64,000 nt of DNA from Cryomorphaceae bacterium BACL11 MAG-121001-bin54 (lineage in GTDB: Bacteria; Bacteroidota; Bacteroidia; Flavobacteriales; BACL11), in NCBI GenBank assembly GCA_905182255.1, contig CAJJAH010000002.1, forward strand, positions 124,001 through 188,000, read 5' to 3'. The notes under the pieces were generated by a model that did no database searches, was not told where the DNA came from, and saw nothing but the letters and a program-made list of their open reading frames with translations. Positions 13,986 to 58,867 of the stretch are shown piece after piece. Position numbers and translations under genes: made by a program. Each line of letters begins with the position of its first letter. Position 1 is the stretch's first letter.

Positions 13986-14125
13986 TATTTCTTAAAATAC
14001 TTATTATATTAAGCTGTTAATAAATATTAAATTTTAAGAATTAAATATTTCATTTTTGAGTTAATTAAATACTTATAATTGCAACTAGTTTTTTACTCTT
14101 TATTAGTTCATTCAAATAAAGAACA

Positions 14126-14230
14126 TTTAAAAAGGATAATGGGAATCGTGTGAAAATCACGAACTGTTGCGCAACTGTAAATGGCACTATAATTTCATAA
14201 GTAGCTATAAGTCAGACACATACCTTTTAA
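14126..14230 (+). promoter_or_regulatory. Cobalamin (AdoCbl-type) riboswitch upstream of nrdB-nrdA
   Basis: The conserved core is readable: GGGAATCGTGTGAAAATCACG (split around 14141-14161), then CTG..GCGCAACTGTAA at 14164-14180, and the 3' strand AGTCAGACACATACC at 14210-14224. The outer stem P1 is formed by AAAAGG(A)TA near 14131 with TACCTTTT at 14221. A further imperfect hairpin (AATCTgCTTT 14238-14247 with AAAGtaAGATT 14255-14265) has no T run, so control is more likely at translation or by another structure. This leader explains the 385-base gap before nrdB; 13986-14125 holds nothing else I can support. Confidence 0.9.
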
Positions 14231-14370
14231 TAAAAAGAATCTGCTTTCGCATAAAAAGTAAGATTGTAATGTATTTGTGTGTGTGTAAATTCACCTCTAT
14301 AATTATTATCTAGCTGTTTATAAAGCATAGTAAACTACTTATTTATTATTAACTTAAAGATTAAAATAAT

Positions 14371-15345
14371 ATGGGAATTTTTGACTATCGAAGAAATTAT
14401 AAACCATTTGAGTACCCAGAAGTACTTGAATTTACAGATGCAATAAATAAATCATTTTGGGTACACTCTGAAGTAGATTTTACTGCTGACACACAAGATT
14501 TTTTATCTCATCTAAATGAGGCTGAACAAAATTCAATTAAAAATGCATTATTAGCAATTGCACAGATTGAAGTTTCTGTTAAAACATTCTGGGGAAACCT
14601 TTACAACCATTTACCTAAACCAGAGTTTAATGGCTTAGGGAGTACTTTTGCAGAATGTGAGTTTAGACACTCTGAAGCTTATTCTAGACTCTTAGAAGTG
14701 CTTGGTTATAATGATGAATTTGAGGATTTAATTAGTATTCCAATCATAAAGGAAAGAGTTGATTATTTACAAAGTGCATTATCTCACGCTAATTCTGATG
14801 ACAAGAAACAATACGCAAATACACTTATATTATTTTCTATTCTAATTGAGAATGTATCTTTATTTAGTCAGTTTGCTATTATTCTTTCATTTACACGATT
14901 TAAGGGATACATGAAAAACGTAAGTAATATTATAGCATGGACATCAATAGATGAACAATTACATGCAAATGCTGGTATCTATATTGTTAATAAGATAAAA
15001 GAAGAAAACCCTGAATTTTTTGATTCTGAAAGCATAAATAAAATAAGATTAATGGTAAAGGAATCAATTGATATTGAGAGCAGATTACTAGATTGGATAT
15101 TTGAACAAGGAGAGTTAGAGTTTATTAACAAAATAGACCTACTTAACTTTATGAAGTACCGTACTGATGAAAGTTTAGTAAAAATAGGAATTGAACCAGT
15201 ATTTAATATTCCTTTTGAAGCATATCAACCAATGGCATGGTTTGAGAAAGAGGTGTTTTCAAATAGTATGGATGACTTTTTTGCCAAAAGACCCGTTGAC
15301 TATACTAAGCATGATAAAAGCATTACAGCGTCAGATTTATTTTAA
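14371..15345 (+). CDS. nrdB: Class I ribonucleotide reductase, small (radical) subunit
   Basis: Builds the metal-tyrosyl radical that drives reduction of NDPs to dNDPs. It is 324 residues. Metal ligands are readable: E67 (in place of the D84 of E. coli), E97, H100, E160, E195 and H198. The radical tyrosine Y104 follows H100 by four residues, as in canonical R2. There is no N-terminal ATP-cone of the kind some flavobacterial NrdB proteins carry. A cobalamin riboswitch precedes it and nrdA follows 15 bases later. The carboxylate E67 is as in Chlamydia-type R2, but the tyrosine is retained. Confidence 0.95.
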   Translation: MGIFDYRRNYKPFEYPEVLEFTDAINKSFWVHSEVDFTADTQDFLSHLNEAEQNSIKNALLAIAQIEVSVKTFWGNLYNHLPKPEFNGLGSTFAECEFRHSEAYSRLLEVLGYNDEFEDLISIPIIKERVDYLQSALSHANSDDKKQYANTLILFSILIENVSLFSQFAIILSFTRFKGYMKNVSNIIAWTSIDEQLHANAGIYIVNKIKEENPEFFDSESINKIRLMVKESIDIESRLLDWIFEQGELEFINKIDLLNFMKYRTDESLVKIGIEPVFNIPFEAYQPMAWFEKEVFSNSMDDFFAKRPVDYTKHDKSITASDLF

Positions 15346-15360
15346 AATATTTAAGAAATT

Positions 15361-17007
15361 ATGGAAAGATATTGGTGGAAGAATAAAGAAAGTGAGCAAA
15401 TATTAAATAGGGGTTATTTGTTAAAAGGAGAAACTGTTGAAGGAGCAATAGACAGAATATGTACAGCAGCTGCAAAAAACTTATTTAGACCTGAGCTCAA
15501 GGAAGGATTTAAGGAGCTAATTGAAAGAGGATGGATGAGTTTAAGCTCACCAATATGGGCCAATATGGGTACAGAAAGAGGATTACCGATTTCGTGTTTC
15601 AATGTACATATTCCTGATAGGATAGAGGATATTACTCATAAATTAGGTGAGGTAATTATGCAAACAAAAATAGGTGGAGGAACATCTGGTTATTTTGGTG
15701 CTATGCGTGAGAGAGGAAGTGCTGTAAAAGATAATGGAAAGAGTAGTGGGGCAGTAAGTTTTATGAAATTATTTGATACTACTATGGATACTATCTCTCA
15801 AGGAGGGGTTAGAAGAGGAGCATTTGCTGCTTACTTAGATATTGATCACCCGGATATTGAAGAGTTTATGCAGATTAAGAGTATAGGAAGTCCAATTCAA
15901 AATCTATTTTATGCAGTTTGTGTACCTGATTACTGGATGAATGAAATGATAGAAGGAGATCTAGAAAAGAGAAAAATATGGGCTAAAGTTTTAGAAAATC
16001 GCCAACAAAAAGGATTGCCATATATATTTTTCTCAGATAACGTAAACCGAAACAAGCCTCAAGTATATAAAGATAAGGGAATGATGATTAATGCAAGTAA
16101 TCTCTGTTCGGAGATTGCTTTGCCCTCAAGTATTGATGAGTCTTTTATTTGCTGTTTATCATCATTAAATTTAGAGGCATATGATGAATGGAAAGATACA
16201 GAAGCTGTAAAATTAGCAACTTTCTTCTTGGATGCAGTACTTGAAGAGTTTATTAAAAAAACAGAAGGTAATTATTATTTAAAAAACGCGCAAAACTTTG
16301 CAAAAAGACATAGAGCATTAGGCTTAGGAGTATTAGGATGGCATTCATATTTACAAAAAAATATGATTCCATTTGAGGGAATGAAAGCAAAACAATTAAC
16401 AGAATCTATATTTAAAGAAATAAGCGAGAAAGCTGAAAAAGCAACTGTAGAATTGGCAAGGATTTATGGTGAACCAGAGTTACTAAAAGGATATGGAAGA
16501 AGAAATACTACACTTATGGCAATTGCACCAACTACTTCTTCATCAGCTATACTAGGACAGACATCTCCAGGTATAGAGCCTTTTTACAGTAATTTCTACA
16601 AAGTTGGATTAGCGAAAGGAAATTTTATGCGTAAAAATAAATACCTAGAAAAACTATTGATTGAAAAAGAAATTGATAATGAAGAGGTATGGAGGGGTAT
16701 AATGCTGAATAATGGTAGTGTTAGTCATATAAATGAACTTTCTGATGATGAAAAGGAAGTATTTAAAACTTTTAAGGAAATTAGTCAGCTTGAAATTATC
16801 CAACAAGCATCTATTCGTCAGAAATATATAGATCAAGCACAAAGTTTAAATATAAACATCCCGTCTACTGTACCAATTAAAGAAGTAAACAACCTAATAA
16901 TTGAAGCTTGGAAACTGGGAGTAAAAACACTCTATTATCAAAGAAGTCAAAGTGTTTCTAAAGAAATGGTAACTAATTTAGTTTCATGCAAAAGCTGTGA
17001 GGGATAA
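15361..17007 (+). CDS. nrdA: Class I ribonucleotide reductase, large (catalytic) subunit, no ATP-cone
   Basis: Reduces ribonucleotides using a thiyl radical. It is 548 residues, much shorter than E. coli NrdA (about 760), because the N-terminal ATP-cone is missing. Key residues are C79 (ISCFN), the active-site N247-x-C249-x-E251 (NLCSE), a C264/C265 pair as redox partner of C79, and the C-terminal C543-x-x-C546 that receives electrons from thioredoxin. Short NrdA forms are common in flavobacteria. Being in one operon with nrdB, it should be under the same B12-sensing leader. Confidence 0.95.
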   Translation: MERYWWKNKESEQILNRGYLLKGETVEGAIDRICTAAAKNLFRPELKEGFKELIERGWMSLSSPIWANMGTERGLPISCFNVHIPDRIEDITHKLGEVIMQTKIGGGTSGYFGAMRERGSAVKDNGKSSGAVSFMKLFDTTMDTISQGGVRRGAFAAYLDIDHPDIEEFMQIKSIGSPIQNLFYAVCVPDYWMNEMIEGDLEKRKIWAKVLENRQQKGLPYIFFSDNVNRNKPQVYKDKGMMINASNLCSEIALPSSIDESFICCLSSLNLEAYDEWKDTEAVKLATFFLDAVLEEFIKKTEGNYYLKNAQNFAKRHRALGLGVLGWHSYLQKNMIPFEGMKAKQLTESIFKEISEKAEKATVELARIYGEPELLKGYGRRNTTLMAIAPTTSSSAILGQTSPGIEPFYSNFYKVGLAKGNFMRKNKYLEKLLIEKEIDNEEVWRGIMLNNGSVSHINELSDDEKEVFKTFKEISQLEIIQQASIRQKYIDQAQSLNINIPSTVPIKEVNNLIIEAWKLGVKTLYYQRSQSVSKEMVTNLVSCKSCEG

Positions 17008-50062: not shown

Positions 50063-51133
50063 TTAATAAAAAGCAATATCTCTAACATTACCATCAACTA
50101 CAATGGTATCTATATATAAACCTATATCCAAATCGTATTTGTAAATAGTATTTTTACTATTATGAGAATCATTAATATACAAAACATCTCTGTTAAAGTA
50201 ACTAGTAGTTGAGTCAGCTTGATTGTATACTGAATATCTTTCATCTTGATAGAACAAAACATCAGAAACTCTACTTAAAATAGAAGCTAATCCTGTACCA
50301 GAGCTAGACATGCTATAAATTCCATTTTCTGCAGTAAAATAACAAATGTTATCATTATCTAAAATTAAATTTTTTGCATTAAAAATACCTGATAATGATT
50401 CTGATCCAATAATATACATTTGAAAAGGATCAATAGTAACTAAAGTTGCTTCTGTTTTTACATTAACTACAGAATTAGTATCAAAAATACCTTTACAAAG
50501 AATATTTAATCCATTGTTAAATACAGCTGAATTTGGATTAACTCCAATATTTAAACTACCAATCATATTAGCAAAAGGAACTAACTCATCTCTATAATCA
50601 ATAGCTACAACAGTTGAATCCTTTAAAGAGTCCAAAACTGCACCACCATTCATAATAAACGAACGATAAGATTTTGATATAATAAAAACAGGTTTAGTCT
50701 TATCTCCTACCTCAACATCAGATGTCATTTCCATTCGATCAATGTCAATAACCTTAACCTTTGCATCATCTTTATCAACTGTAAAAATTCTATTCATTGA
50801 AACAAAATCAAAATCTATAAGATTCATAAATCCACCCACCTCACCTTTAATTTCAAAAGTTTCAACATTAGCTGAATAGAGACTATTTTCAGTTGCAATA
50901 TATGCTTTTGTACCTTGGAAATTTATCTTATTTACATTGTAAAGTGAAATACCATTAACATCTTGAAAAATATTATCCATAACTACTCCATTTTTGTAGA
51001 AGCTAACACCATTATCTGTAGTTATATAAATTCCAGAACCATACTTTTTTGGAAATGAAGGCGTTTCTTCCTTATCCTTTTTACAGGAAGAAATAAAGAC
51101 CAAAGCAATAAATAAATAGTTAATTAATTTCAT
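50063..51133 (-). CDS. Beta-propeller lipoprotein, second B12-locus propeller (DUF5074-like)
   Basis: A 356-residue protein with a lipoprotein signal (LFIALVFISSCKKDKEE, lipid Cys about residue 17). The body is all beta, with repeating strand pairs (GSGIYITTDNGVSFYK, KAYIATENSLYSANV, LNIGVNPNSAVFNNGLNILCKG), consistent with a propeller related to the BtuG-like neighbour. It has no T9SS tail. A terminator and a separate -7 box lie between it and the btuB operon, so it is an independent transcript, with possible read-through. Cobalamin binding is an inference from context. Confidence 0.7.
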   Translation of the reverse strand: MKLINYLFIALVFISSCKKDKEETPSFPKKYGSGIYITTDNGVSFYKNGVVMDNIFQDVNGISLYNVNKINFQGTKAYIATENSLYSANVETFEIKGEVGGFMNLIDFDFVSMNRIFTVDKDDAKVKVIDIDRMEMTSDVEVGDKTKPVFIISKSYRSFIMNGGAVLDSLKDSTVVAIDYRDELVPFANMIGSLNIGVNPNSAVFNNGLNILCKGIFDTNSVVNVKTEATLVTIDPFQMYIIGSESLSGIFNAKNLILDNDNICYFTAENGIYSMSSSGTGLASILSRVSDVLFYQDERYSVYNQADSTTSYFNRDVLYINDSHNSKNTIYKYDLDIGLYIDTIVVDGNVRDIAFY

Positions 51134-51148
51134 GGTATAATTTTTAGC

Positions 51149-51156
51149 AAATATAA
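51149..51156 (-). promoter_or_regulatory. -7 box of the propeller lipoprotein gene
   Basis: TATATTTG fits TAnnTTTG, 15 bases before the ATG at 51133 and directly after the upstream terminator's T run. Confidence 0.6.
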
Positions 51157-51180
51157 AAAAAGGGAGGCAACTGCCTCCCT
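51156..51180 (-). terminator. Terminator of the btuB-propeller operon
   Basis: GGGAGGC (51163-51169) pairs perfectly with GCCTCCC (51174-51180). On the minus strand it is followed by seven T residues. Confidence 0.9.
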
Positions 51181-51209
51181 CATTAAATTAAAATACTTAA
51201 TACTTAGGT

Positions 51210-52490
51210 TTACTCAACAATTAACTTCTTTGTAATCACTCCCAAATTTGTATTAATTTCAACTAAATAGATTCCATTCATTTCTTTTGTTAAATCAATT
51301 ACATCAGAAAAATTTGACAATGTAATCGATTTAACGACTACACCTAATACATTTCTTACAACAATAGAATTAATTATTTTGGAAGAGTTAATTAAAAATC
51401 TACCACTAGATGGATTAGGATAAACAGAAATTGAAGCAGTGCTCAAGTCTGATATTGATGAAACAGTTTCTGAAAAAGCAAAACTTCCAGGTATGATGCC
51501 AACTTGAAATGAATCAACTACTAATCCTGTAGTTGCATAACGATAAACCCAGCCCTGTTGAACGAAATCAACAGCATCAGAACCATAAATTTCATTTGAA
51601 ATAGGGTCATAACCTAAACCATAAAAACTTCTGTCAATAATTGGAGTAGTAGATAAATTAATATCATTAATTCCAAACTCATAAACAGCTTTACTCCACG
51701 ATCCATCAGAATAATATAATTTATTTCCCGCTCCGTTAATAACTAAATCTTCAGGGTGATTTCCTATTGGAAATACTAAAGAAGACTCAATAGTATTAGT
51801 GCTAGTATTTATCATTGCCAAAACACCGGGGGTTTCGCTAATAACATTCCAGTTAGCATCATATTCCGTGAAACCACCAGTTAAAACCCATACATTACCA
51901 TTAACATCTACAACAGCAGAATTTGGTTTATCCCCAACAGTTAAAGTAGTTTCAACTGCATCAGTATTAGTATTAATGACCGTAACCGTGCTATCAAGAC
52001 CCCAACCACCAACATTACATACATATGCAAAACCATTAGAAACAGCAATACCTTCCGGACCTGTTCCGCAATCAATAGTTGAAGAAACAGTATTAGACAA
52101 TAAATCAATAACCTGAATTCCATTAATACCCCAATCGCTAGCATAAGCCTTAAATGTATTTACTTGTTTTAAATATCTTGGTTGATAAACTTGAATAGCT
52201 GTAACATAGATATGATTTTCATCAATAACTTGAATTGTGGATGAATTATTTACACAAATATATCCATTACCATTAATCAATTCCATTGATTGAGCAACAT
52301 CACCCATTAAAGCTCCTCCATTATTAGAACTATACACATCATTGGATACTGAATTTGTTGTTTTATCGTAAATTGATAAAGAGCTATTCCCAGTTCCAAA
52401 ATTCCCTTCATTAGTAATATATACTGAAGAGCTCTGTGCAAATCCTATAATTGGTAATAGCATTATAATTTTTAATAATTTTTTTTTCAT
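51210..52490 (-). CDS. BtuG-like beta-propeller with T9SS sorting domain (probable surface cobalamin-binding protein)
   Basis: A 426-residue protein. A signal peptide (about 1-18, ending IIGFAQ) is followed by a YncE/DUF5074-type propeller (about 20-340) starting YITNEGNFGTGNSSLSIYD, with GDVAQSM, GPEGIAVSNGFAYVCN, GDKPNSAVVDVNGNVWVL and GNHPEDLVING blades. The C-terminus is a classical type A sorting domain (VYPNPSSGRFLIN to KKLIVE). BtuG of Bacteroides is a surface lipoprotein of this fold that passes B12 to BtuB. Here it follows a BtuB-like gene under a B12 riboswitch but uses T9SS export instead of a lipid anchor. Confidence 0.85.
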   Translation of the reverse strand: MKKKLLKIIMLLPIIGFAQSSSVYITNEGNFGTGNSSLSIYDKTTNSVSNDVYSSNNGGALMGDVAQSMELINGNGYICVNNSSTIQVIDENHIYVTAIQVYQPRYLKQVNTFKAYASDWGINGIQVIDLLSNTVSSTIDCGTGPEGIAVSNGFAYVCNVGGWGLDSTVTVINTNTDAVETTLTVGDKPNSAVVDVNGNVWVLTGGFTEYDANWNVISETPGVLAMINTSTNTIESSLVFPIGNHPEDLVINGAGNKLYYSDGSWSKAVYEFGINDINLSTTPIIDRSFYGLGYDPISNEIYGSDAVDFVQQGWVYRYATTGLVVDSFQVGIIPGSFAFSETVSSISDLSTASISVYPNPSSGRFLINSSKIINSIVVRNVLGVVVKSITLSNFSDVIDLTKEMNGIYLVEINTNLGVITKKLIVE

Positions 52491-52510
52491 TTTTTTGTTT
52501 TTGTTTTTGA

Positions 52511-54385
52511 TTAGTTAATTGTATAATTTATAGTTAATAATAATTCTCTTCCAGGGTTGGGATAATTTTGATAAGTAGTATAGCTTTTATCCACCACGTT
52601 TTTTAATTTACCAACAAATGTAATAGGTAACTTTTCAAGCGCATACTTAATAGCAATATCAGTTAAGATAAATCCATCTAAAGTATTGTTATTTAATGAT
52701 CCATAAGTTGTAATTACCTCTCCAGTATAGGATGTATTTAAGCTGAACTGAAGATTATTCATAGTAAGGGTAAAGCTTATATTTCCTTTGTGAAGAGGAA
52801 CATACCTTAGCTGCTCGCCAACAGTGTTATCCAACTTGTTACTAGATAATTCACTGGTTGATCTGATAAAAGAATAGTTTCCTAAAATACTTAGTCTTTT
52901 AATTTTAAATATAGCTTTTGTCTCTAAGCCTCTACTCCACACTTGCTTTATATTATTAGGTTTCCAATTTCCATTTTCCATTCGCTGCCAAACTATCATG
53001 TCTGATATGTCTAAAGTGTAAGCGGTTACACTAAATTGTATATACTTAGAGTTAACATCAAAACCCAGTTCTTTGCTCCATGCATCTTCAGGTGTTAAGT
53101 CAGTATTTCCATTTGACCCTGCTCCTACCCAAAATCTATCGTTATATGTAGGTGAGCGAAAGTTTCTATTGTATTTAAGCCTGAATTTTATAGAAGAACT
53201 TAAATTGGCTTCAAAAGCCAAAGTTGGCATAACAGGAACTTCAAATGAAGTCTGCCAATCTTTACGCAATACAGTGTTTAAGGCAAAAAATTCTGATCTA
53301 TACTGTATGGAAGAAAAGGCCGTTAGATTGGTCTCATTCTTGCCCATAAAAATATAATTATTGTTAGCTATCTTGTTATTAGTAAAAGCACCTGCAATAT
53401 TAAATAAGTAATTTCCTTTAATCAATTTAACATCAGCATCTGAAATATAACTTTCCGCTAAGAAATGGCTATCAATATTTTTTAAAATTTCAGTATACCT
53501 GAAGTCCTCTTGAATGTAGGCTTGTTTTAAATTAATGCTCAAATAATCGTCTTTATGATTTATGCTTAATAATACACGATTAGCCTTATCATATTGCTTG
53601 GCATCGGAAAAAGGAGTAGTCATGTTTTGCGGCACTTCTCTATCAAGTTGACTAGCCCAATAACTAAAGTTGTAAATAGTGTACTTACTTGATTTATAAC
53701 TTACATCCAAATGTTGGTTTTTTGATTTTATCTTTCCATATTCATTTGTAACTAATGGACGTCCAAATTGAGTAACATTAATGTACTCAAAATCATTAGC
53801 ATGAATTAAGCTTTGTAAACTAACTTTTGCTGATAATTTCCTTTGCTTTAAAGAAAATGCTAAAGATTCACTTTTCAAACCATAACTACCCATGGTTGTA
53901 TTTATAGAAAAAGAATTTTTATTTATAGATTTAGAGTTAGTATTTAGATGTATACTTCCTCCAACTGATCCAGAACCAAATACTGAAGCATTACCACCAT
54001 GTACCAGATAAATATCAGTAAAATTATGAGTATGGATACTTGAAAAGTCAGATAGTCCATTAGCAATAGAGTTAAGAGGAACTCCATTCCATAGTACTAA
54101 AGTATGAGAACTAGTTGTACCCCTAAATGAAGGAGTAGCCAAAGAACCATATTGCTTTATGTATATAGATGAGGAGCTTGAAATGACACTTGCTAAATCA
54201 CAACTACTACCTTCTCCTATTTCTGCTGGTTTAATAACATCAATTTGAGCACCAATAGTATGAACTGCAAGTCTACTTTCTATTAACTTTACTTCTGGAA
54301 GCTGGATGGTATCCATAGCCATCTGACCTTGTAAAATATTTACAAAACCCAATAGGAGAAATATGTGTGCTATAATCTGTTTCAT
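52511..54385 (-). CDS. btuB: TonB-dependent outer-membrane receptor, BtuB-like (cobalamin uptake)
   Basis: A 624-residue receptor. A signal peptide (about 1-20) is followed by a plug domain (about 45-150) with SFRGTTSSHTLVLWNGVPLN and GSGSVGGSIHLNT, then a 22-strand-type barrel ending YPNPGRELLLTINYTIN with a terminal hydrophobic residue. IQLPEVKLIESR near the mature N-terminus may hold the TonB box. The substrate is assigned from the cobalamin riboswitch directly upstream and the BtuG-like gene downstream. Barrel sequence alone would not show it. Confidence 0.88.
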   Translation of the reverse strand: MKQIIAHIFLLLGFVNILQGQMAMDTIQLPEVKLIESRLAVHTIGAQIDVIKPAEIGEGSSCDLASVISSSSSIYIKQYGSLATPSFRGTTSSHTLVLWNGVPLNSIANGLSDFSSIHTHNFTDIYLVHGGNASVFGSGSVGGSIHLNTNSKSINKNSFSINTTMGSYGLKSESLAFSLKQRKLSAKVSLQSLIHANDFEYINVTQFGRPLVTNEYGKIKSKNQHLDVSYKSSKYTIYNFSYWASQLDREVPQNMTTPFSDAKQYDKANRVLLSINHKDDYLSINLKQAYIQEDFRYTEILKNIDSHFLAESYISDADVKLIKGNYLFNIAGAFTNNKIANNNYIFMGKNETNLTAFSSIQYRSEFFALNTVLRKDWQTSFEVPVMPTLAFEANLSSSIKFRLKYNRNFRSPTYNDRFWVGAGSNGNTDLTPEDAWSKELGFDVNSKYIQFSVTAYTLDISDMIVWQRMENGNWKPNNIKQVWSRGLETKAIFKIKRLSILGNYSFIRSTSELSSNKLDNTVGEQLRYVPLHKGNISFTLTMNNLQFSLNTSYTGEVITTYGSLNNNTLDGFILTDIAIKYALEKLPITFVGKLKNVVDKSYTTYQNYPNPGRELLLTINYTIN

Positions 54386-54427
54386 CTGCCTGCCGTTTTA
54401 TCCAGAAACGAATCGGTTTTTTTATGC

Positions 54428-54570
54428 TTAGCAGGTCTTCTGACTTGGTCCTTTTGGAATGGCCTTCCCATTAATTAAAACAGTGGCAATGTAGTTTCCA
54501 AAAAATTTATGGACTTTACAGCTTCTGGTAAAGTTGAGGAGTTACACCTCATTCCCTTTTACACTAAAAT
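54428..54570 (-). promoter_or_regulatory. Cobalamin riboswitch upstream of btuB
   Basis: On the minus strand the core reads GGGAATGAGGTGTAACTCC (54556-54538 region), CAACTTTACC, AAGCTGTAAAG, then GCCACTG, and the 3' strand AAGTCAGAAGACCTGC (54446-54431). These match the AdoCbl riboswitch conserved blocks in order. It lies between the promoter at 54590 and the btuB ATG at 54385. B12 would be expected to reduce btuB expression. Confidence 0.9.
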
Positions 54571-54589
54571 ATAATGTACTAAACTGAGG

Positions 54590-54597
54590 CAAATATA
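54590..54597 (-). promoter_or_regulatory. -7 box of the btuB leader transcript
   Basis: TATATTTG fits TAnnTTTG. A start about 54585 would place the whole riboswitch in the leader. Confidence 0.65.
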
Positions 54598-54627
54598 AAA
54601 ATAGTTAATAGCTAGCGGCTATTACTT

Positions 54628-55429: not shown

Positions 55430-55448
55430 AACCTTAGTTGTTTGTTTT
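55379..55448 (-). repeat. Leader/signal-peptide repeat, copy A
   Basis: A 70-base block with AACAAACAACTAAGG, then ATG and DNA coding KKL.LILLCLP. It is shared with copies at 55897-55960, 58251-58305 and, partly, 58851-58883. Confidence 0.7.
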
Positions 55449-55947
55449 AATATGTTTCTTTGCCTACATAATTACCTGGCGGACTATACTGACAAACCCA
55501 AATTTGCTTATCTTCACATTGCACAACTGCACAACCTACTTCTTTTGTATCTCTCCAAATAATTTGAGTATAATGTCCGCAACCAAAGTTGTTATTTATA
55601 CATTTCTTAGTTTTAAAATCAAAACATTCTTTCTCAGTAGCCCAATAGTCTACAACATCATAAGATTTAGCTACTTTATCATAATATAATGCTAAATTTT
55701 CTCCGTATCCTTTTCTATATTTTTTTGAACTATGTTTTAAGCTGTTTGAGCACTTTTTTTTTAGAATTTTAGCCCAAATTAATGCATTCGTTGCTAATTC
55801 ATCAGACCATTTAAGTTTATTAATTCCTAACTCAGAACGATAAATATTATGAGCATCTAACATTCCCTCAATTTCTACATACTCACTTTCATTTTGCCCA
55901 AACCCAATAATAGGCAAGCAAAGTAATATAAGTAGTAGTTTTTTCAT
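55447..55947 (-). CDS. Secreted CAP-domain (SCP/PR-1-like) protein
   Basis: A 166-residue protein with a signal peptide (about 1-18, ending IIGFGQ). The CAP domain has MLDAHNIYRSELGI (first His), WSDELATNA, GYGENLA, GCGHYTQIIWRDTKEVGCAVVQC and VCQYSPPGN. Both His and the acidic residues of the CAP cavity appear present, and several Cys suggest disulfides. Bacterial CAP proteins have no settled function. Its stop overlaps the repeat that precedes the orphan signal peptide. Confidence 0.9.
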   Translation of the reverse strand: MKKLLLILLCLPIIGFGQNESEYVEIEGMLDAHNIYRSELGINKLKWSDELATNALIWAKILKKKCSNSLKHSSKKYRKGYGENLALYYDKVAKSYDVVDYWATEKECFDFKTKKCINNNFGCGHYTQIIWRDTKEVGCAVVQCEDKQIWVCQYSPPGNYVGKETY

Positions 55948-55960
55948 AATCTTATTATTT
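55897..55960 (-). repeat. Leader/signal-peptide repeat, copy B
   Basis: The start of the CAP gene. It differs from copy A at a few bases over about 60, including CTACTACTT for CTAATACTT and TATTATTGGG for TATGATTGGG. Confidence 0.7.
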
Positions 55961-55991
55961 CTATCTAATTTTTAATTTTGTGTTTAGTTTT

Positions 55992-56465
55992 TTAAAGCCA
56001 TCTTCTGACTTTCTTTTTATATTCTAAATATTCTAGCCCAAACTTTTTTTCTAGGTATTGTTCTTCTTTTTTTACGGCAGTAAAGTAAACGACTATCAGT
56101 GCAGGGATAAATGCAAACATAGCCCAATAAGTCATAAAAATAAAACCTAAACCAATCGGACCTGCACAAGATATTAAATATACAGGATTTCTTGAGTATC
56201 TATATAGCCCAGATGTAATTATTTTTGAGGTAGTTTTGGTTGGTTCTATTTCAGTCTCATTCTTTTTATAAAAATTGACCATATATCCAAACCCAAGGAA
56301 TGATGAAATTAAAATTATCAATCCTAAATACACGAGCCATAATGGGCCTGTGATTGTTAACGGCTTTAAATAATGTATTACTATACCAAATAATCCAAAT
56401 CCAAGAAAAATTAATGGAGGAGGTGTTTTAACTCCAGGGTTATCATGGTTTAATTCTTTTTCCAT
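55992..56465 (-). CDS. Isoprenylcysteine/phospholipid methyltransferase-like membrane protein
   Basis: A 157-residue integral membrane protein with about four helices (about 17-32, 37-58, 90-108 and 111-130). The C-terminal block GLYRYSRNPVYL ... FTAVKKEEQYLEKKFGLEYLEYKKKVRRWL is given in parts: RYSRNPVYL, KKEEQYLEKKFG and YKKKVRRWL. It is the SAM-binding signature of the ICMT/PEMT family. The substrate is probably a lipid or small thiol, unknown. Confidence 0.85.
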   Translation of the reverse strand: MEKELNHDNPGVKTPPPLIFLGFGLFGIVIHYLKPLTITGPLWLVYLGLIILISSFLGFGYMVNFYKKNETEIEPTKTTSKIITSGLYRYSRNPVYLISCAGPIGLGFIFMTYWAMFAFIPALIVVYFTAVKKEEQYLEKKFGLEYLEYKKKVRRWL

Positions 56466-56523
56466 ATTTATAAATGTTAATCTATTTTTATAAATGTAAT
56501 TTTTTCATTGTTAATCTATTGTT

Positions 56524-58287
56524 TTATTCTATAACTATTCTTTTCTCTACTGATCCATCATCATAGATGTAAAAGAAAGGTTTGTTTTTTGTTCCTTTAG
56601 ATTCACGACCTAATATGTCTGTTATTTTTATTATTTCTTTGACTTCTGTATTTGTGTTTTGTATAATACTTGTTACTGATGGATTATATGATAAAATACA
56701 TGTGCTATCACCGTATAAAAAATAGATAGATAAAGGGAATTGTGGAGTATTTGTATTTAACGAAAAATAATTATACCAAGTTGTTCCTGAATTAGCCATG
56801 AAGTAATACAAATTACCAAAATGAACTGTATCGCCATTAGCATCAATTGTAAAGGCAACATGAGGATACCATAATCCAAAACTAAAATCACTAAATATAG
56901 AGATACTAATTGATGAGTTAGTTGTATCAATTATAACATCAGTTACTTCTAATGAATCTGAACAATTGTAGTTAATCGTTAGGTTAAGATTTGCAATGCT
57001 ATCACAGCCTGCTAAATTAATTAAAGTGATTGAATAATCTCCTGAAGCACTAAGAGTTATACTATTCCATACAATACTTGTATTAACAGATAATGTATCA
57101 TATGAAGATGTATTATAAATACAAGAACCATTATCTAAAGTAGCTGAAGCATCATAATTACAAGCAAGTGAATCTGTACATCCAAGTGTAGGCGTATAAA
57201 AAAACCAATCGAACTTTTGTGCACGATATAAATTTCCGCCATCATCATACTCTAATTGAAATACAATTTGATTATTTGAATCTACTTCTGTAACAATAGA
57301 ACCAGTATTTAGCCATTGAAGATTACCGAAATTAATAAGAGTATTTCCATTTGGCAATCTTTGTGCTCCACCTATTGATGGTGTATATAGAGAGTCAGGA
57401 TGCACAAATTCCCATACTTTTGTTGCTTCCATTAAGTTAGTATCCAATTCATATTCAACAGCTCTTGAGATATTAATTGTTCCTGTATACTGAGCACTAT
57501 AATTACCATTATCATATAATAGATATCTACTGTTTCCTAAACTTCTTATTGCATGTTGATGCGTGAAAGGATAGTCATCTACAAATGTAAATTCATTTTG
57601 AGTACCTCCCCATCTCCAAATAATTTCTCCAGTTGTTCTATGTATTTTAGTTATTTCATCCAAACCCCTACAGGAAATTAAAAAATGTCCATCAAAATCA
57701 ATATCAATTGCATTTGCATGTATAAACGGAAGATTAGCACCAGTCCATGGGCTCAAGTAGGCGTTATCGGTTACATGAAAATGATCCCAACTTTTCCATT
57801 CAAAAATAAGATTATGATTTGCGTCTAACTCTTGAATAATCAATCCTTCAACAGTTGCATTTGGGTTTCCTCCTGTAACAACAGTATCCATTGCGTAGGA
57901 CTGTTCATCATATGCAAAAAGAACAAAATTTCCATTAGCTAATGCCAGAAAATCATGATTATCTGCGGTATATCCATTTAAACAATATACAGAATCAATT
58001 TCATTTTGAAGAGAATCCATAATGAACCAACCTTTTGATAATCTGTCAAAATAGGAGATTTTATTATTGTAATTCACTTTAAAATCCCACCCTTTCATTC
58101 CTGTGTTTTGCGAATATAGTTCAGATATTGAAGGATCAATAATTTTAACAGGTTTTATTTGGGATCCGCCTAATTGATAAAATAAATTAGCTTGCCAGGA
58201 ATCTGTAGTGTTTACTGTAACCGTATAATTAGCTTGAGAAAATATTAACGCTGGCAAGCAAAGTAATATAATTAGTAGTTTCTTCAT
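56524..58287 (-). CDS. Arylsulfotransferase-like (ASST) propeller protein with a minimal T9SS-like tail
   Basis: About 587 residues from M at 58287, which opens a signal peptide (MKKLLIILLCLPALIFSQ); the longer reading to 58365 runs through the upstream gene. The ASST-type domain (about 20-370) contains HDFLALANGNFVL, HANAIDIDFDGHFLISCRG, WRWGG and HQHAIRSLGNSRYLLYDNG. A GCTDSLACNYDASATLDNGSC module lies near 375-400 (written in two parts, GCTDSLACNYD and ASATLDNGSC). The tail ends DILGRES...FFYIYDDGSVEKRIVIE. Sulfotransfer is not assured. Confidence 0.82.
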   Translation of the reverse strand: MKKLLIILLCLPALIFSQANYTVTVNTTDSWQANLFYQLGGSQIKPVKIIDPSISELYSQNTGMKGWDFKVNYNNKISYFDRLSKGWFIMDSLQNEIDSVYCLNGYTADNHDFLALANGNFVLFAYDEQSYAMDTVVTGGNPNATVEGLIIQELDANHNLIFEWKSWDHFHVTDNAYLSPWTGANLPFIHANAIDIDFDGHFLISCRGLDEITKIHRTTGEIIWRWGGTQNEFTFVDDYPFTHQHAIRSLGNSRYLLYDNGNYSAQYTGTINISRAVEYELDTNLMEATKVWEFVHPDSLYTPSIGGAQRLPNGNTLINFGNLQWLNTGSIVTEVDSNNQIVFQLEYDDGGNLYRAQKFDWFFYTPTLGCTDSLACNYDASATLDNGSCIYNTSSYDTLSVNTSIVWNSITLSASGDYSITLINLAGCDSIANLNLTINYNCSDSLEVTDVIIDTTNSSISISIFSDFSFGLWYPHVAFTIDANGDTVHFGNLYYFMANSGTTWYNYFSLNTNTPQFPLSIYFLYGDSTCILSYNPSVTSIIQNTNTEVKEIIKITDILGRESKGTKNKPFFYIYDDGSVEKRIVIE

Positions 58288-58305
58288 CTTAGTTGTTTGT
58301 TTTCC
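58251..58305 (-). repeat. Leader/signal-peptide repeat, copy C
   Basis: The start of the ASST-like gene, with the same AAACAAACAACTAAG leader and LLCLP-coding DNA as copy A. The leader also supplies the last codons (K-T-N-N-stop) of the upstream gene. Confidence 0.65.
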
Positions 58306-58867
58306 AATTTGTATTTCTCTCAAACTTAAATAATTCACTTTTATCAGTAAAATATATCGTATCATTTATTGTATTTGAAAAAAAAGTATTTGTATCACTA
58401 TCAAACAACTCAAGAGTTAAGTATGAGGAGTTTAAAGTACTAATTGTAAAATTATGCTGACCAACTATTAAAGAATTACCATTTTTAATCCAGTCAGTTA
58501 TTATGGCATCACCATCTTCATCAACTCCAGCAGCATCTCCGTTAGAATTAAAAAGTAAATCTAACCAGAAATTATTAATTTGGGATTGTGTATTTGTAAT
58601 TACCTTCTGCCCATTAGGATATGTAGTCCAATATCCTTCATTTTGAATAATAGTCCATTCAAAAGAATCCCAGTATCCAACGATTGATACAGTGGGATAG
58701 ATACAAGAACCGTCATCATTAGTAGCACTTGAATTATAGTTAGTTGCAGTAGCATCCGTACATCCATTAACTAATATTGGAGTAACTATTGTTGGTGCTA
58801 TATCTTCCTCTTCACAAGCTGAAAAAATAATTGATACTGCTAATAATGTATTAAGTAGTTTTTTCAA
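58289..58867 (-). CDS. Lipoprotein with a GCTD...DDGSC module and lipocalin-like body
   Basis: A 192-residue protein with a lipoprotein signal (LLAVSIIFSAC, lipid Cys about residue 18). It is followed by the GCTDATATNYNSSATNDDGSC module, given here as GCTDATATNYN and SSATNDDGSC (about 35-56), and a beta-rich region starting SIVGYWDSFEWTI. Translation appears to start at TTG 58867, in a leader whose other copies have ATG. Its stop is one base before the ASST-like start, so the two form an operon. Function unknown. Confidence 0.75.
   Translation of the reverse strand: MKKLLNTLLAVSIIFSACEEEDIAPTIVTPILVNGCTDATATNYNSSATNDDGSCIYPTVSIVGYWDSFEWTIIQNEGYWTTYPNGQKVITNTQSQINNFWLDLLFNSNGDAAGVDEDGDAIITDWIKNGNSLIVGQHNFTISTLNSSYLTLELFDSDTNTFFSNTINDTIYFTDKSELFKFERNTNWKTNN

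Follow-up and report, generated by a model that had tools for sequence, protein, structure and literature searches.

Here we describe a vitamin B12 (cobalamin) uptake locus in a 64,000-nucleotide stretch of Cryomorphaceae bacterium BACL11 MAG-121001-bin54 (contig CAJJAH010000002.1, positions 124,001 to 188,000), hereafter the window, in which the gene for the propeller protein BtuG encodes a tail of the type IX secretion system (T9SS) and no lipidated cysteine. The order of transcription on the minus strand is promoter element, riboswitch, btuB, btuG, terminator, second promoter element and a further gene that we call X. Bacteroidota promoters use the motif TAnnTTTG. The features are as follows.

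54590..54597, minus strand: promoter element TATATTTG (TAnnTTTG type, exact motif match), at the 5′ end of the riboswitch transcript
54413..54598, minus strand: cobalamin riboswitch RF00174 (full-length match, 87.2 bits against a gathering score of 31.5, E = 3.9e-20)
52511..54385, minus strand: btuB, TonB-dependent B12 receptor of the BtuG-partner class, 624 residues (Plug and TonB_dep_Rec; profile match to Bacteroides thetaiotaomicron BtuB chains)
51210..52490, minus strand: btuG with T9SS tail, 426 residues (DUF5074 and Por_Secre_tail; BtuG2 match; AlphaFold and Foldseek)
52437..52490, minus strand: within btuG, type I signal peptide MKKKLLKIIMLLPIIGFAQ, residues 1-18, without lipobox (translation)
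51468..52433, minus strand: within btuG, BtuG propeller domain, residues 20-341 (DUF5074, BtuG2 match, model)
51216..51425, minus strand: within btuG, type A T9SS sorting domain, residues 356-425 (PF18962, TIGR04183)
51160..51181, minus strand: intrinsic terminator between btuG and X (a stem of nine pairs as counted, then a T run)
51148..51155, minus strand: promoter element of X, TATATTTG, immediately 3′ of the terminator (motif match)
50063..51133, minus strand: X, lipoprotein (Cys17), diverged BtuG-like propeller, 356 residues (profile and predicted-structure matches to BtuG)

An earlier note on this DNA, made from the letters alone, had described an operon of promoter, cobalamin riboswitch, BtuB-like receptor, and DUF5074 propeller with signal peptide I and type A tail, closed by a terminator. 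All of these elements were confirmed by motif, covariance and domain searches, the riboswitch with a covariance-model score above the gathering threshold. The note did not mention the lipoprotein propeller X, which comes right after the terminator. A like stem-loop and T run occupies the same place in seven of the nine relatives' loci compared.

The BtuB receptor carries both Plug and TonB_dep_Rec domains. Its best relatives in the PDB, searched with the single sequence, are B. thetaiotaomicron BtuB chains (8bmx_C, 1e-35); the same single sequence scores 132.7 bits on TIGR01779, below the equivalog cut-off of 599.7. Since a profile of its relatives lies far nearer to the B. thetaiotaomicron chains (1.4e-108 to 8bmx_C and 3.6e-107 to 8p98_A) than to Escherichia coli BtuB (~1e-40), the receptor falls in the BtuG-partner class. 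An aromatic position in extracellular loop (EL) 8 is also kept, where W474 aligns with Tyr538 of BtuB3, a residue thought to help expel B12 from BtuG (PMC10404256).

The protein encoded by btuG matches DUF5074 over residues 23-329 (62.5 bits against a cut-off of 27.2), and among solved structures its best sequence matches are BtuG lipoproteins that bind B12 (BtuG2, 8bmy, E = 5.7e-46). The earlier note had likened the propeller to BtuG, and an unrelated fold was not seen: the AlphaFold model (mean pLDDT, the predicted local distance difference test, 89.8) has a confident propeller, and its first 13 Foldseek matches are all BtuG structures, with TM-scores on the target of 0.84-0.90. We compared the pocket at loop N54-T64 and at W194, Y239, W272, Y316 and Y335 of BtuG2 (residues from PMC10404256). 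The loop corresponds to NEGNFGTGNSS in the window protein, W194 and Y316 are kept as W163 and Y290, and Y335 is F309. The propeller has a net charge of -23. Taken together, B12 binding by this propeller is likely on sequence and model.

Where the protein departs from known BtuGs is at its two ends. In BtuG2, a surface lipoprotein, the anchor is at Cys32, and a linker runs along EL2 of BtuB and forms a hinge on EL2 and EL11 (PMC10404256); 114 BtuG homologues have been described as lipoproteins (PMC6143338). The window protein has no such cysteine, and with it lacks the lipobox, the lipid anchor and the N-terminal hinge linker; the propeller begins within ~10 residues of the signal peptide. At the other end, a low-confidence linker (residues ~343-360 of the model) leads to a strand-rich tail (pLDDT ~76-91) that matches Por_Secre_tail (PF18962, residues 356-425, 38 bits against a cut-off of 27) and TIGR04183 (42.9 bits against 23). 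This sorting domain occupies the extreme C-terminus, ending at residue 425 of 426, and together with the type I signal peptide gives the layout of type A cargo. By these features the protein is a BtuG homologue that stands outside the lipoprotein BtuG type as published.

To place it, we surveyed BtuG loci from across the phylum, which gave 161 distinct propellers (160 and that of the window); long open frames were chosen on purpose, and the counts are not prevalences. The lipid cysteine occurs in none of the 31 T9SS-tailed BtuGs, the window protein included, and in 127 of the 130 untailed ones, the remaining three being gene models that are masked or truncated; lipoboxes were scanned for with a pattern and not a trained predictor, and several untailed proteins failed the strict form of the pattern and passed a looser one. 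Upstream of the NEG motif there is a median of 10 residues from the mature N-terminus in tailed proteins vs. 23 from the cysteine in lipoproteins, so that the N-terminal linker, which in BtuG2 acts as the hinge on BtuB2, is ~13 residues shorter in tailed BtuGs. In these proteins signal type, linker and tail change together, and the hinge linker goes with the lipid. When the anchor was mapped on the BtuG tree, nine changes were most parsimonious and at least six were forced by strong branches (quick tree, no bootstrap). A single origin of the T9SS form is rejected on these forced changes, and one extra tailed copy, in a relative of the window genome (G008), is closest to its own genome's lipoprotein. 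T9SS-tailed BtuGs beside BtuB occur in many families, including distant lineages. As a rough floor, when 392 genomes were drawn evenly from the phylum, 136 exceeded the DUF5074 cut-off and 21 of these had such a gene adjoining BtuB; a cobalamin riboswitch lay upstream of btuB in all ten tailed loci examined, among them that of the cultured Flavobacterium humi DS2-A.

Several surveyed operons contain further genes. A family of ~320-residue proteins (L216:6296-8272, L207:5911-6882, L135:4978-5940, L030:2098-3054 and L208:2025-2996) is found in btuB-btuG operons of Flavobacteriaceae and others; its members have a mature start like SYPPAAGQ.GSTAI, are usually T9SS-tailed and are candidate new surface proteins of B12 operons. 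The two that were tested, the extra T9SS-tailed neighbors in L135 and L030, gave no Pfam or PDB match outside the tail, and their identity as BtuJ was not supported, given the lack of a DUF4465 match and of any PDB relative beyond the tail. In family f43 (L127:2035-3693, L247:1031-2371, L249:1163-2503 and L254) the order is a lipoprotein BtuG, then a second propeller, very diverged, of 447-553 residues and with a T9SS tail, and then another T9SS-tailed protein. Finally, in Balneolaceae-like genomes (L102, L103, L106, L108 and L111) a large protein starting MKFTRFYT... adjoins the T9SS btuG operon downstream of btuG; we take it to resemble a B12-dependent ribonucleotide reductase.

Within the window genome's own family the T9SS form is rare. 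A BtuG propeller match was obtained in 33 of 52 genomes, and the BtuB-BtuG-X locus of close relatives nearly always holds an untailed lipoprotein BtuG that ends at about ...IIPGGYCFN. The tailed form occupies this locus only in the window genome (G000), in G002 of the same genus and in G061 (MAG TMED123, a metagenome-assembled genome) of another, and in these three genomes no other BtuG match was found. The idea in the earlier note that T9SS BtuG might be a general trait of marine relatives was therefore not upheld: nearly all orthologous loci of the genus and family keep the lipoprotein, which rules out that the T9SS form is common among marine relatives, and the tailed form is found also in distant lineages and in a cultured Flavobacterium.

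The trees of the three genes at the locus tell different histories. The T9SS BtuGs of the window, G002 and G061 form a single clade (support 100/100). In the BtuB and X trees each of the three stands beside its own host's relatives, in three separate sets (100/99-100). A host-following BtuG tree was rejected by approximately unbiased (AU) tests for the genus (p = 4e-52) and for the other genus (p = 1.6e-8), and vertical inheritance of the T9SS form within the genus is ruled out by these tests. The DNA itself bears the same mark: between G002 and G001, identity is mostly 82-93% in btuB, 59-77% in btuG (the tail being unaligned) and 93-97% in X. The simplest reading of these sequences is that btuG alone was replaced in situ by homologous recombination, more than once. 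A different route is seen in G008, whose second BtuG copy has a type I signal peptide and a T9SS tail and is closest to the lipoprotein BtuG of the same genome; as predicted from its gene, this copy shows a separate gain of signal peptide and tail.

Two further observations concern the proteins of this genus and of the window. In the lipoprotein BtuGs of genus members G003 and G011 (L081:3246-4274 and L086:2584-3612), blade 1 is short by ~37 residues, among them the NEGNF pocket loop; their closest relatives are intact. Next to the locus, at 55447-58365 of the window (minus strand), CAP-domain and arylsulfotransferase-like proteins have a signal peptide (MKKLL.ILLCLP...) almost that of the G008 T9SS BtuG copy, as if signal peptides were swapped as modules.

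Considering all of the above, we think it reasonably probable that at this locus a B12-binding BtuG is brought to the cell surface via T9SS instead of by a lipid. Under B12 scarcity the riboswitch would permit expression of the operon, and BtuG, as the high-affinity B12-binding partner of BtuB, would exit through T9SS rather than being displayed with a lipid. Proteins with type A tails are for the most part attached by a sortase to A-LPS (anionic lipopolysaccharide), and only some cargo is released (PMC10202324); the PorU sortase would cut off the C-terminal domain, and BtuG would then be joined to A-LPS or set free. The N- and C-termini of a propeller are next to each other, so a C-terminal tether could substitute for the N-terminal one and hold BtuG from a similar place, presumably to dock on BtuB. 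Display near BtuB seems more likely than release, because the T9SS form is the only BtuG found in three genomes. The machinery is present in the lineage as judged by homology, with a PorU match of 1335 bits in the window genome and SprA in 11 of the 14 genomes of its genus.

Four observations tell against this explanation. SprA was not found in the window genome itself, whose assembly is 53% complete. In the pocket, W272 and Y239 of BtuG2 are H245 and T208, and a different affinity is possible. Without the hinge linker, BtuG could not dock on BtuB exactly as BtuG2 does. Moreover, in F. humi and in a Winogradskyella MAG the T9SS BtuG stands in tandem with a lipoprotein BtuG, followed by further T9SS-tailed proteins without an assigned family, which looks like the addition and not the replacement of a lid. 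In genomes that have the two forms together, the tailed one may be an extra B12 catcher.

The tandem arrangement and the lost BtuB-contacting linker are also what one would expect of a released cobalophore, in which PorU cleaves the tail and the propeller becomes a diffusible B12 carrier that is later recovered by BtuB-bearing cells. A subset of type A cargo does go to the medium (PMC10202324), and off-cell capture has a precedent in B. thetaiotaomicron vesicles, which with BtuJ can deliver B12 (PMC12751083). However, anchoring is the usual fate of type A cargo, a free carrier would easily escape from planktonic cells in dilute seawater, and in the window, G002 and G061, where the tailed protein is the sole BtuG found, BtuB would be lidless unless X substitutes; on balance we find release doubtful. 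A broader version, in which T9SS BtuG is a diffusible, possibly shared or contested protein cobalophore of very high affinity, and lineages alternate between keeping it by lipid and secreting it by T9SS as an ecological strategy, appears to us unlikely.

The possible role of X raises another alternative, namely a division of labor: B12 would be caught by the T9SS propeller on a loose tether, and BtuB would be capped by the lipoprotein X as its lid. X is indeed BtuG-like: its profile matches BtuG PDB chains (E = 3.2e-13), and its model (pLDDT 86.5) has BtuG3 and BtuG2 as best Foldseek matches (~1e-15). It is kept with BtuB and BtuG at most loci of the family. Yet this holds whichever form of BtuG is present, and its occurrence beside ordinary lipoprotein BtuGs indicates that X did not arise as compensation. 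The NEGNF..N pocket loop is shorter in X than in BtuG in the alignments, and X-like proteins were recognized only in the window genome's family, whereas T9SS BtuGs adjoin BtuB in many. In addition, because the terminator precedes X and X has its own promoter element, its expression may be independent of the riboswitch. We therefore regard a division of labor as quite unlikely.

It seems very improbable that the ligand of the propeller is something other than B12, or that the protein has a structural role at the surface and only happens to be encoded in a B12 operon. DUF5074/YncE-type propellers are diverse and two pocket aromatics differ, but the top sequence and fold matches are all BtuG structures, mostly B12-bound, the pocket loop is conserved, and a cobalamin riboswitch and a BtuB neighbor were found at every T9SS locus tested. 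An artefact of assembly or binning, with chimeric MAG contigs joining a foreign T9SS gene to the operon, is scarcely credible: the genomes of the window, G002 and G061 are incomplete or metagenomic, but the gene order is shared by three separate assemblies, in each of which the contig also carries a btuB and an X that agree with the host, and T9SS-tailed BtuG is widespread, including in the isolate F. humi DS2-A.

BtuG, type A T9SS cargo and B12 riboswitches are each already known, and the locus shares features with several described systems. Like BtuG2 and BtuG3 of B. thetaiotaomicron (PDB 8bmx-8bn0, 8bai and 8okv) with BtuB2 and BtuB3, it has, under riboswitch control, a DUF5074 propeller of seven blades and next to it a BtuB from the class of BtuB2 and BtuB3, with the pocket loop and several pocket aromatics conserved and a net charge strongly negative, as in BtuG2; unlike BtuG2, with its Cys32 lipid and hinge linker, the window BtuG has neither and instead a C-terminal T9SS domain. 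BtuK1 (PDB 9s6c) and BtuJ (DUF4465) of B. thetaiotaomicron are B12-binding surface proteins that B12 operons encode as well, and BtuK1 is a weaker fold match to both BtuG and X. In contrast to the window BtuG, they belong to other propeller or jelly-roll families and are lipid-anchored, and their papers make no mention of T9SS. With the type A cargo of Porphyromonas gingivalis, such as gingipains and HBP35, the protein shares a Sec signal peptide and a C-terminal Ig-like type A domain, with PorU present in the genome, but its cargo domain is the partner of a vitamin transporter. As for SusD-type and other lipoprotein lids of TonB-dependent transporters of the Bacteroidota, a surface binding protein is encoded with the transporter; unlike those lipid-anchored lids, this one uses a protein-secretion tail.

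A literature search found no link of BtuG or DUF5074 with T9SS and no T9SS cargo acting as a vitamin-transporter partner, although most subscription papers lay outside it and the evidence is accordingly weak. The literature searched did not contain a BtuG that travels by T9SS, mutually exclusive anchors with loss of the linker, or exchange of a single gene at the locus. In published work BtuG is a lipid-anchored lid whose N-terminal linker hinges on BtuB; here the anchor, the linker and the predicted export route have all been exchanged, and repeatedly. Pairs of almost identical operons with differing display of the B12 catcher occur in nature; they offer a means of asking whether the lid must be lipid-hinged, and bear as well on the role of T9SS in small-molecule uptake and on the release of B12 binders by some bacteria. 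If our explanation is true, the reach of T9SS would extend to vitamin uptake, with F. humi DS2-A as a cultured starting point.

With regard to B12 use in the lineage, B12-dependent MetH occurs in several relatives. A second riboswitch candidate lies in the window at 14117-14271 (plus strand), where the AdoCbl (adenosylcobalamin) riboswitch model RF01482 gives a match below threshold (44.3 bits against a gathering score of 50, E = 6e-7) immediately ahead of a gene pair (14371-17007) that resembles the ribonucleotide reductase genes nrdB-nrdA. In the sister genomes G005 and G010 a riboswitch match above the RF00174 threshold lies upstream of the same genes. Such a riboswitch would be a case of B12 control of a B12-independent reductase.

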